64,000 bases of DNA, from NCBI RefSeq assembly GCF_964340395.1, contig NC_135565.1, positions 5,642,642-5,706,641 of the forward strand, read 5' to 3'. Below, piece by piece: positions 968 to 59,638 of the stretch. The position numbers were made by a program, and so were the translations under genes. How positions within the stretch are numbered: the stretch's first letter is position 1; every line of letters starts with the position of its first letter. Under the pieces are notes generated by a model. The model was not told the origin of the DNA and made no database searches. It saw only the letters and a program-made list of their open reading frames with translations. This stretch comes from Glandiceps talaboti (taxonomy: Eukaryota; Hemichordata; Enteropneusta; Spengelidae).

Positions 968-3900
968 ATGGAGGCCTTCAAAGACCGAGATTTGGTTATT
1001 CGTATCGGGAAACGTTTGAATGAACGGTTTTTAGACGAAGACCTCATGAAACAATACGACAGCGATTTGATGCCAAGTGAAGAAAACGCCGCCATGTTGG
1101 TCACCAATACAGCCAAAATACACATGGGAATTTTTAAATCAACACTTCAGGAGCATGGAATTAGTATTTGGAGGTTACTTCTAGCTAAAGGCTTCTCTTC
1201 GAAGAATGTTATTACGGAATTATACTCAGATGACGAGGAGGTCAGGAGTTTTTGATATCGGATTTTTTTTTTCATTTTGCCATTGGCGACCATATCATAC
1301 GATAGAAAAATACTGAAGGGGGGGGGGGGGTCTGGTGTAACTGTTAAAGACACGAATTATATTTGATATGTTGATGGTGGCGTTTATGAGCGAGATTGTA
1401 TAGTTCGTGAAACGTTGCGGTTTGCTTGGATTGTATGATTTTCATTTGTTTTCTTGGTAAAATGGCTTTATTGAGATCATAGTTGAAAATGGATGTCGAA
1501 GAGATTTGCAAGGTCAACAACATAAACAACAACAACCAAACATCAGACCTTTTAACACATTAGAAATCACACATTCGTATTGAACAAAATTATCATACAT
1601 ACATACATACATACATACATACATACATACATACATACATACATACATACATACATTACATTACATGCGAATATAACAACCGGTGCAAAATATGACATAT
1701 GCTGTCCTTGTTGAACTTTGTCCAACGAGATCTTGATAAATAAAGTTCAGTCACGGTTTATTGACTCTATTTGTCTATCATCTCAGATTTTATCTGTATC
1801 TTTGCACACAAACTGGGTCGCTATACACATTCTCTTCTAAAGAAAAAAAACTCTTGGCAACATTGCATTGCTCTATGCTTGGGGACCTCTTAAAGTCATT
1901 TTCACCAGCCTTTCCTCGCGCGATCTCCCTAAAATAAAGCTATGAAAATTAGCAAATCAGGCTACCTATGCAGAGACTTGCTGTACTCATAGTAATAAGA
2001 ACCGTATACCTCTTTAACCATGTCCTAGCAATATCAAGGCTTGTGCTATTGTTTGAAGAGGTCTAGACATGTTAACTTTATTTCACTATATCGTTTACAC
2101 ATAGCCTCGCCTAAACCAGATTTGACAAGTTCCACAAATCTATTTTGGAGAGGTTCTGCAGTGTAGAATTGGTTAACGTGAATTTTCTGGGTCATCTAAG
2201 GGACCGGTCAGTTTCTTCGGCCTGGGGGTGGATTTGTTGCGGGGTCACCCTGTTTTCGAAATTGGCAGTAGGGGGGTCATGCTGTTTTCAAAATTGTGGA
2301 TAGGGGGGGGGGTCATTGTGTTTTGGATTGTGATGGAAGAAAAAAATCATTTTTCTTATAGCCTTGTCTCAAATGTGGTACATGTAAATATGTGTTCTTA
2401 TCCCTGTTTCTTACATGGATTCTTTAGTATTACTTATTAGTTCAAACATAACTATACATATACATATACATGTATTACCTAGCTACCACACTAGTTACAG
2501 AACATGTCATGTAAATGCTTGGCTGTTTCACACTCAGTGCTTCACTTATATTGCACTTTGGGGCAAAAGTGAATCACTTGAAGGTTTCGAAATGGTAATC
2601 TTCATAAATAGTTTATAAAAGAAGTTAATCTAAATTGTTCTACTCGTCACTATGAACTTGTCAGAAGGGATTAATACACTTTCTAGTTTGGACACCATAT
2701 GTTATTGACACTACAAATCACCACATCTCATCAGATTCCAGTTTTTATTATACACTAAGTATGACCACCTAACGTTCTCTAACATACCGGTGATGCCCCT
2801 ATACCAATTTTACGGGCCCATTTTTATGTGACATGGGAAACTCATTTAAAACTTACATTTACGTAAGCTATTAGAAGCTTGGAAATATTAACTCAAAGGC
2901 TATAAATAACCTAAACATTGCAGAAACAAAAAACTGCAAATATGCCAGGGGGAAAACCCCAAGGACTCCCTCACCCCGGAGGTCACTCATACTTTCAACC
3001 AACAATCAGATGCACCAACAACCTTTTTACTGTCATAATGGTATTAAACTTTTCTTAAATATTTTCACCCTATTCTAATTTGAGATGATATTGTATTTTA
3101 ATGATGTGAAATTATTGCCAAGGTAGTCTAAAATTGCCATAAACTCCAAATCTCTCGTACCAATGACACTACCATTAGATGTGCTGACCTTTACAACATG
3201 TATATAATGGTGCCATTTAACTTTTTAAGAACATATTTTAACCCTATGTAAGTTATAAAGAATAGTTTCTGATACTTGATGGTGCTGTCTTGTAAAGCAT
3301 GGATGGATCCGGAGTTATTGCTTGAAAGGGTCTGAATAGCTTCAATATTGGCTTTAAGAGTAAAGAACCTCCAGGGCTTATAGGGGAGACCCCCTAGAAC
3401 CCCCCTCCCCATAAGAGATATACATATTCCCTGCACAAGCTTTCCCACATCTTTCACTGTCAAGATGTTATTAAACTCCTTTTGGAATATATTCACCCTG
3501 TGTAGTCAGTCAATAATTATAATTATGATAGTGCTAACCCGGGACCTTATAAAGTAGATGCAAGACAGTCAAGCAGTCCACACTGATGAGTCATGATAAA
3601 AAAATACCTGTCATGTGAATATTATACATGGGGGGGGGGGGGGGTTCATCATGTTTTAGAATTAAGTGATGGGGGGGGGGCAGCCTGTTTTTGGTTTTAC
3701 AGATAGGGGTGGTCAGTGACTTTTTGTCGGCCCGAATTAAGAATCCATCGCCCCCCCCCCCCCAGACTGGAGAAACTGACCGGTCCCTAAGCATACAGAA
3801 TTGCAGCAACAACCTCACAATAACGACTCCTTCATGTAAATACGAATTCCCTTTTAGACTGTAGTCTTTATTAATATTGATAAATTTATCTTCTCATCAG

Positions 3901-58100: not shown

Positions 58101-59638
58101 CAGTGGCTCCTTACGCAAGTTGTTCGACGATTACAAAGATAAAGTCGACTTCTTGATGGTATACATGTACGAGGCACATCCTGCTGAAGGGTGGCGCTTT
58201 GGTACACACTACAGTACAGTTAGTCGGCACAGAAACATCAAGGAACGCATTGATGCTGCCCAGTAAGTTTGTCATTTATTAAGTTTAGGCTCAGACAGGC
58301 GGTCTGAGGTTTAGTGTTGGGGTAGGGGTAAGAATGGGAAGAGATAGAGGGTTATATCACTTAATATACACACAAATGTATAGAGCCAACAAGAAATTCC
58401 AATGTTTCATGTTCTTTCGGAGGTGAATTGAATGAATTTCGTAAATTCTTAGTGTGGCCTAATCACTTGAGCGATTTTTTTAATTAGATAGAAAACTTAC
58501 AAACCCGCCATATTGAATGATGCATTATTGGAAATATAATTAGATTCCATCGATAGACATTAATTACTTTTGTACTGGTAGTCTCGGTTACCCAGACTCT
58601 CACCACTGGAGGCTCTTCTACGAGACTACCCAGACTCTCACGAGTCCACCCAGACGAGAGTCTGGGAAAACTACGTTTCAACTACCCCACGCTGGGAGTC
58701 ACACAGTGCATTTCTTACCAGTCATAAGAAATGTCGCGAAGCTACCTAAATTGATCGTTTAGCCAACAATGTTGGACGTCAAGTAGTCCCCAGCATGCAC
58801 TGCTCTAGAAGCTACTTCCTGCACGGTTGGAATCTCGATTCCCCATCCTCTCTTTTGGCGAGGTCTCGTAGGCAGAGCCCCCAGCAGCGACAGTCTGGGT
58901 GACCGAAACTAGGTCTGAAATAGATATATACTGCCGCTACTAAAGTAACTATCACACAGTACTTTGTTTCTGAGCATGTTCACTGCACTGACATGTGGAA
59001 TTAAAATAGTATAATTGTATCTCACATTCCCTAGATATTAAAGTGCACAATCCAAGTCGCTGGTAGCAATTGACAGTACCGATGTGTAGTCATGAACGTT
59101 AACATTGTCATAAGTAACCATGGAAAATAGGATTGACATAGGGGGCCTTGTCACTACATGTCGCTAGATTTAATTGAAACGTTTTGTATTTCGAGCATCA
59201 CAGAACCAGTGACGTAGACACAGGTTCTCATGACATAGGATGACTAAGGTATATATATATTCCACATTTTCTGTTTTAAGGACAATAACTTGGCTTGTGC
59301 TGGATGTGATGAGACATATTATATGTCATAAAACTGTCATATCATACATTTTCTTTTCTCTTTTCCATTTTAGAACTTTGATAGATCTGGACAGCACATA
59401 CAACACATTCTCAGCTGATTTGACCGATCGCAGTAAGATTCCAATTGTGTGCGATAACATGGACAACGAGTTCGACAGAGTGTATGCTGCACTACCAGAC
59501 CGTACCTACGCCATTGAGGAAGACAAAATCAAATACATCGGCAGACTCGTCTTTCAACAGATGCAATCTCAAAGCGAATGGTTGATGACTGACGAGATGA
59601 GAGAATGGTTGGAGGGTCGCTTCGGGAAAGCAAAGTAA
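55157..59638 (+). CDS. Iodothyronine-deiodinase-like selenoprotein, paralogue 3 (4 coding exons)
   Basis: Coding exons are 55157-55429, 57207-57413, 58090-58262 and 59374-59638 (918 nt, 305 aa; phases 0, 0, 2). It begins MDSTEEAYRNRDLVAKVAKR, a diverged version of the same N-terminal segment. The active site is ERPLVVFASSLS-U-PPLR with TGA at 57399-57401 (residue 156). Later motifs are YMYEAHPAEGW, RHRNIKERIDAA and DNMDNEF..YAALPDRTYAI, the last closest of the three to vertebrate deiodinases. The C-terminus RFGKAK has no CaaX cysteine. All donors are good (GTAAGT at exons 1 to 3). An acceptor AG at 55146-55147 lies ten bases before the ATG. It is ~41 kb from paralogue 2, beyond the TGF-beta-like gene, in the same orientation. 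Confidence 0.92.
55565..55735. mobile_element. Small MITE, copy B, with 9-bp target-site duplication
   Basis: A 153-bp element (55574-55726) with terminal inverted repeats TAGTCTTTCTGCTAGAC / GTCTAGCAGATAGACTA is flanked by exact CTACCGGAG on both sides (55565-55573 and 55727-55735). Confidence 0.8.
56145..56430. mobile_element. Dispersed element, copy A
   Basis: AATCAATTTTGTTCTCGCGATTTTCCGGATTTC... recurs at ~62318 and, inverted, at ~62590-62660. The second part (TAGCTTGCTAGAACAAACTC..CACTGATCCGACTAA) recurs inverted at 62405-62500. Confidence 0.65.
56435..56712. mobile_element. MITE family of 48710-49010, second locus
   Basis: GTCTCGCTGGCAGACTC, GCGGCTAAGCCGCTCGGCAT and ATTAGGGACGATAGTCA segments are arranged in inverted and tandem fashion. 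In intron 1 of deiodinase paralogue 3. Confidence 0.65.
56785..57075. mobile_element. Long-TIR fold-back element, copy B
   Basis: Diverged copy of the element at 49970-50285, in intron 1 of deiodinase paralogue 3. Confidence 0.6.
57399..57401 (+). other. In-frame TGA selenocysteine codon, paralogue 3
   Basis: The context SSLS-U-PPLR is the same as in paralogue 2, 12 nt before the exon 2 donor. A SECIS-like hairpin lies 295 nt past the terminal stop. Confidence 0.9.
57449..57535. repeat. (GAT)n-(GGT)n microsatellite
   Basis: Begins ~35 bp after the exon 2 donor of paralogue 3. Confidence 0.95.
58578..58912. mobile_element. MITE with TAGTCTCGGTTACCCAGACT ends, copy A
   Basis: The left end is mirrored by CAGTCTGGGTGACCGAAACTA at the right. 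Further CCCAGACTCTCAC repeats lie inside. In intron 3 of deiodinase paralogue 3. Confidence 0.6.

Follow-up and report, generated by a model that had tools for sequence, protein, structure and literature searches.

Deiodinases control how much active thyroid hormone is available. The origin of the thyroid-hormone system outside vertebrates is argued mostly from database protein models. Here, we analyze a stretch of 64,000 nucleotides from the acorn worm Glandiceps talaboti (Hemichordata, Enteropneusta; NCBI RefSeq assembly GCF_964340395.1, contig NC_135565.1, positions 5,642,642 to 5,706,641, forward strand; hereafter the window), which very probably carries three intact paralogous genes for selenocysteine (Sec)-containing members of the iodothyronine deiodinase family. 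A 2012 study described clusters of Sec-encoding deiodinase genes in invertebrates (PMC3473315). Table 1 of that work counts 11 DI selenoproteins in Trichoplax, 4 in Lottia, 12 in Capitella and 9 in Branchiostoma, and the DI clusters of Branchiostoma, Trichoplax and Lottia likewise consist of several neighboring Sec-encoding genes. The clusters are described as having mixed strands, with two Sec insertion sequence (SECIS) elements following one Branchiostoma gene and strong ones at three of six Trichoplax cluster genes (PMC3473315). Compared with this description only, the Glandiceps cluster belongs to another phylum, has all genes on one strand and carries one SECIS-like element per gene. The mussel proteins McDx and McDy also combine an in-frame TGA at the active site with a SECIS predicted in the 3' untranslated region (UTR), and are described as 258 and 242 amino acids long, compared to 305-310 in Glandiceps (PMC8481496; again by description only).

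Vertebrate Dio1, Dio2 and Dio3 (structures 4tr3 and 9h48) share with the Glandiceps proteins the deiodinase domain, the Sec site, a Tyr/Glu/His/Trp/His network and a Dio loop of Dio3 length. Unlike the vertebrate enzymes, the Glandiceps proteins lack both the N-terminal transmembrane segment and the proximal and distal Cys, and they read SSLS-U where Dio2 and Dio3 have GSCT-U or GSAT-U. An extra helical N-terminal domain and, in two of the three proteins, a CaaX-like tail further set them apart.

The three genes lie on the plus strand with four coding exons each and encode proteins of 305, 310 and 305 amino acids (genes 1, 2 and 3; Table 1). Exon 1 and exon 3 have identical lengths in all three genes (273 and 173 bp), intron phases are 0, 0 and 2 throughout, and all nine introns have GT-AG borders. 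The sole in-frame stop ahead of the gene end is a TGA in every gene, set in SSLS-U-PPFR in gene 1 and SSLS-U-PPLR in genes 2 and 3. Besides this TGA, none of the three genes shows a disabling change. Relative to gene 1, gene 2 has 55% and gene 3 44% identity, and tblastn found no further deiodinase copy in the window, with remaining matches at E 2 or worse. The first-pass annotation of the window had described three paralogous same-strand genes of an invertebrate with shared exon lengths, phases and in-frame TGA. All of these structural claims hold in each gene, and the host is a hemichordate. The start codons at 968, 10749 and 55157 all lie within AATTATGGA. An acceptor-like AG precedes them by 8, 14 and 9 nt, respectively, suggesting a non-coding first exon in the three genes. 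By eye, an intron 1 repeat of gene 3 (about 56150-56430) seems to recur, partly inverted, downstream at about 62300-62660 and is possibly a small mobile element.

Table 1. Coding exons and SECIS-like elements of the three Glandiceps talaboti deiodinase-like genes (window positions).
Feature	Position	Strand	Length	Remarks
Gene 1 exon 1	968..1240	+	273 bp	N-terminal helical domain; domain model made for gene 3 exon 1, gene 1 exon 1 in the alignment
Gene 1 exon 2	3901..4089	+	189 bp	Sec TGA (residue 150)
Gene 1 exon 3	4653..4825	+	173 bp	EAHP..W plus second His
Gene 1 exon 4	5551..5833	+	283 bp	Ends ...YCQII, then TAG; CaaX-like tail
Gene 1 SECIS-like element	6703..6772	+		RF00031, 25.4 bits (cut-off 35); 869 nt past stop; AATAAA at 6961
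Gene 2 exon 1	10749..11021	+	273 bp	
Gene 2 exon 2	12135..12344	+	210 bp	Sec TGA (residue 157)
Gene 2 exon 3	13374..13546	+	173 bp	
Gene 2 exon 4	13943..14219	+	277 bp	Ends ...SSCTVL, then TAA; CaaX-like tail
Gene 2 SECIS-like element	14996..15061	+		RF00031, 23.4 bits (cut-off 35); 776 nt past stop; AATAAA at 15470
Gene 3 exon 1	55157..55429	+	273 bp	Domain model of this exon
Gene 3 exon 2	57207..57413	+	207 bp	Sec TGA (residue 156)
Gene 3 exon 3	58090..58262	+	173 bp	
Gene 3 exon 4	59374..59638	+	265 bp	Ends ...GKAK, then TAA; no CaaX
Gene 3 SECIS-like element	59924..59987	+		RF00031, 22.8 bits (cut-off 35); 285 nt past stop; AATAAA at 60638

Membership in the deiodinase family, also proposed in the first-pass annotation, is borne out by hmmscan matches of all three proteins to Pfam T4_deiodinase (PF00837) at 107.9, 100.8 and 97.1 bits (genes 1, 2 and 3; cut-off 27; E-values 6.3e-31, 9.3e-29 and 1.3e-27). 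These scores, together with the identity of genes 2 and 3 to gene 1, exclude a chance origin. Dio3 (PDB 4tr3) and Dio2 (PDB 9h48) are the sole solved structures with a significant sequence match, and the TGA column aligns with the Sec position of both in all three genes. We mapped catalytic residues by alignment to 9h48 and 4tr3 from the Dio2 residues named in PMC11592359. In gene 1, Dio2 Ser127, Thr129, Sec130 and Tyr157 correspond to S147, S149, U150 and Y179, and Glu160, His162, Trp167 and His182 correspond to E182, H184, W189 and H201. All eight catalytic or loop positions are invariant across the three proteins, with Dio2 Thr129 replaced by Ser. The helical N-terminal domain matches no family.

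Alternatively, the genes might encode Sec enzymes that descend from deiodinases but serve another role, for example as a peroxidase or as a reductive dehalogenase of other iodinated or brominated aromatics. We consider such a role a minority possibility, though one to be taken seriously. Gene 1 weakly matches Pfam Redoxin (E 6.3e-4, 20 bits, under the cut-off of 26.6), SSLS replaces the GS[CA]T of Dio2 and Dio3, and both helper Cys are absent. However, the three proteins retain the Dio proton-relay residues as well as the Dio-loop Trp. The loop, in which the two catalytic His of gene 1 lie 17 residues apart, aligns without gaps to Dio3 (Dio2 has three additional residues in this stretch). The position of the proximal Cys is occupied by Leu in all three proteins, and the distal position by Val, Val and Ile (genes 1, 2 and 3). 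Besides Sec, each protein contains a single Cys (C302, C307 and C244, respectively). C244 of gene 3 lies four residues past the distal position and could thus stand in for the distal Cys. No N-terminal transmembrane segment was found. Averaged over 19 residues, hydropathy peaks at 0.73, 0.43 and 0.57 in the first 110 residues and at 1.15, 1.18 and 1.23 anywhere in the proteins (genes 1, 2 and 3).

Support for the TGA encoding Sec comes from both the coding sequence and the 3' flanks, in line with the first-pass annotation. Past the TGA, the pairs 1-2, 1-3 and 2-3 share 61, 51 and 53% of their amino acids, compared to 48, 37 and 31% ahead of it. Non-synonymous divergence (dN) is accordingly lower past the TGA in each pair (0.28, 0.38 and 0.37 versus 0.43, 0.61 and 0.71). 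The proportion of non-synonymous differences (pN) past the TGA is 0.23-0.30, compared to 0.74-0.90 for synonymous differences (pS). Synonymous divergence (dS) is saturated among the three genes, hence no dN/dS ratio is given. If the TGA were a true stop, the genes would produce a truncated protein of ~150 amino acids comprising the N-terminal domain and the start of the thioredoxin fold, or they would be decaying. The downstream part would then be free to decay, as the first-pass annotation had also considered, and its higher conservation in all three pairs, with low non-synonymous change, speaks against such a stop. The lack of any further disabling change and the SECIS-like element behind each gene point the same way, whereas four starfish database models are annotated as ending at this site and the SECIS matches stay under the Rfam cut-off. 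Overall, we regard a true stop as very unlikely.

Searching the whole window against Rfam at E <= 10 gave a list of 44 matches, of which 32 are microRNA families, many inside simple repeats. SECIS_1 (RF00031) accounts for three of the 44 and falls once behind each gene, always on the plus strand. By our arithmetic, random placement would put three matches one behind each gene, within 900 nt and on the correct strand, with a probability of ~2e-6. The ATGAC, the apical AAA and the 3' GA are present in all three elements. An AATAAA follows each element within 1200 nt, which is weak evidence in A+T-rich DNA. Several observations weigh against Sec-encoding genes. The SECIS_1 scores (22.8-25.4 bits, cut-off 35) all miss the gathering threshold, and singly the matches are non-significant window-wide (E 1.3, 4.7 and 6.7 for genes 1, 2 and 3). 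Restricted to their own 3' flanks, the E-values are 0.034, 0.11 and 0.16. Folding z-scores reach only -0.93, -1.49 and -1.62, and a custom SECIS pattern was not more common in the window than in simulated sequence. Among the relatives, the Saccoglossus kowalevskii protein P0002 carries Pro at the second catalytic His (DQP versus NQH or SRH in the three genes); P0002 may be inactive or mis-predicted.

Database relatives were searched among proteins of 0.55-1.75 times the query length. A profile search using all three of our sequences yielded 10 proteins among the best 7997 candidates by shared words. A second search with the parts ahead of the TGA and two starfish models returned 5 proteins, 3 of them already found. 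No database protein for gene 1 or gene 2 was recovered in these searches. Gene 3 is represented by P0001 (Glandiceps talaboti, NCBI 'thyroxine 5-deiodinase-like'), which is identical to it in every one of the 293 residues of the record, the first 148 and the final 145. P0001 lacks the 12 residues VFASSLS-U-PPLR encoded by the final 36 nt of gene 3 exon 2, with the cut after 57377 and a GT next. The models from Saccoglossus (P0002) and Ptychodera (P0003) lack the whole exon 2 region. Two Patiria models, one from Acanthaster and one from Asterias (P0009-P0012), all labeled 'uncharacterized protein', terminate precisely at ASSLS, coinciding with the TGA site of the acorn worm genes, and we infer that their stop is likewise a TGA. 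None of the four starfish models has a Pfam match at E <= 1. P0009 and P0010 of Patiria miniata bear consecutive gene numbers and come from contigs recorded with equal length, which suggests a tandem pair in starfish as well. P0001-P0003 and P0009-P0012 have in common the N-terminal domain plus either the C-terminal domain or the HKERPL..ASSLS sequence and, as recorded, lack Sec, unlike the three genes. Sec is therefore missing from the records of all seven named animal relatives found, with the stretch absent in the three acorn worm models and the four starfish models truncated. The remaining proteins, P0004-P0008, share the T4_deiodinase domain (listed for all five) and the EAHP motif but differ by Cys at the Sec site (read in P0004, P0007 and P0008, motif-matched in P0005 and P0006).

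The absent stretches could alternatively reflect genuine splicing of the kind modeled by NCBI for gene 3, creating a thioredoxin-fold protein without an active site. P0001 is cut exactly ahead of a GT, and the Saccoglossus and Ptychodera models skip the entire exon 2 region. However, catalytic positions are among the lost residues, which rank with the most strongly conserved of the three proteins, and no GT occurs at the matching place in genes 1 and 2. The AlphaFold model of P0001 has a mean predicted local distance difference test score of 44, with residues 98-293 below 50, which also counts against such splicing, though weakly given only five aligned sequences. Genuine removal of the Sec stretch thus appears highly improbable, and we favor an intact exon 2 encoding Sec. 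The first-pass annotation had expected gene finders to stop at the TGA and mis-annotate the genes. Mis-annotation did occur, but the gene 3 model spliced the active site out instead of stopping. In vertebrates, automatic annotation has been documented to lose Sec (PMC12822975).

We propose that the three genes are transcribed and that the exon 2 UGA would be read as Sec by means of a SECIS hairpin in each 3' UTR. The predicted protein pairs a soluble, helical N-terminal domain with a downstream thioredoxin-fold deiodinase domain, in which the selenolate and a Ser/Ser/Tyr/Glu/His/His network would take iodide off an iodinated phenol. The most likely substrate is thyroid-hormone-like, with an iodothyronine or a Triac-like compound as the best guess. 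Because both Cys aiding re-reduction in Dio1 and Dio3 are absent, an external thiol probably reduces the oxidized Sec directly. Poor re-reduction, perhaps with a single turnover, has been reported for Dio2, an enzyme without the proximal Cys (PMC11592359), and by analogy the Glandiceps enzymes could possibly operate in a few-turnover mode.

The proteins of genes 1 and 2 might be anchored to membranes by a prenylated C-terminal Cys, while the gene 3 protein is probably soluble. The termini CQII (gene 1) and CTVL (gene 2) fit a C-a-a-X pattern with X = L/I/M, as expected for geranylgeranyltransferase I (GGTase-I), and their Cys is the sole one besides Sec in either protein. GGTase-I is reported to target CaaL/I/M, with neither CQII nor CTVL mentioned there (PMC11152559). 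Of 1234 chance reading-frame tails in the window with 30 or more residues, 9 (0.7%) look CaaX-like. The two tails are not independent given that genes 1 and 2 are sister copies, and are otherwise nearly wholly different. No CaaX tail was found in gene 3 or in the Saccoglossus and Ptychodera models. We hypothesize that the CaaX tails of genes 1 and 2 serve as lipid anchors to membranes, which, if used, would represent another route for placing a deiodinase on a membrane.

The first-pass annotation had also suggested a lineage expansion. A small tree built from 10 sequences joins genes 1 and 2 (support 0.93) but does not settle where gene 3 falls with respect to the proteins from Saccoglossus and Ptychodera, nor when it split off. 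Expansion of Sec deiodinases in invertebrates was already published (PMC3473315). Beyond the previously known invertebrate clusters and mussel Sec deiodinases with SECIS (PMC3473315, PMC8481496), the hemichordate cluster, the SSLS-U form with an N-terminal domain in acorn worms and starfish, the gene 3 record without an active site and the CaaX tails appear new as far as the searched literature shows, with subscription journals largely outside. By title and beginning of the abstract, this literature contained no report of a hemichordate or echinoderm deiodinase cluster, and among the best matches listed no title concerned deiodinase prenylation.

Most tunicate and amphioxus models have been described as lacking the catalytic motif, which led to the suggestion of different catalytic sites and a call for better annotation (PMC8699336). 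By analogy with the acorn worm records, the loss of Sec as an annotation artefact could explain the missing motif in these models. More speculatively, acorn worms and starfish may share a deiodinase subfamily that was hidden because the Sec codon defeats gene prediction. In such a subfamily, the helical N-terminal domain and, in some copies, a geranylgeranyl group at the CaaX tail would have replaced the transmembrane anchor, with no need for a resolving Cys. We offer this scenario tentatively and consider it less likely than not. If true, the thyroid-type hormone metabolism of deuterostomes would have included a branch of soluble or lipid-anchored enzymes next to the membrane-spanning one of vertebrates.

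The window contains additional features between genes 2 and 3. A four-copy tandem array spans 27781-35174 with a copy spacing of about 2.01-2.06 kb. The best stretches of the copies are 93-96% identical to the reference copy, with others down to 65%. Each copy holds an open frame on the plus strand, and a Pfam scan of two copies gave no match. Further downstream, 37440-37826 (plus strand) weakly matches the TGF_beta domain (E 2.4e-4, 22.3 bits, under the cut-off of 27). The region directly upstream (36498-36905), which has no Pfam match, might be the propeptide belonging to it, although this is a guess.

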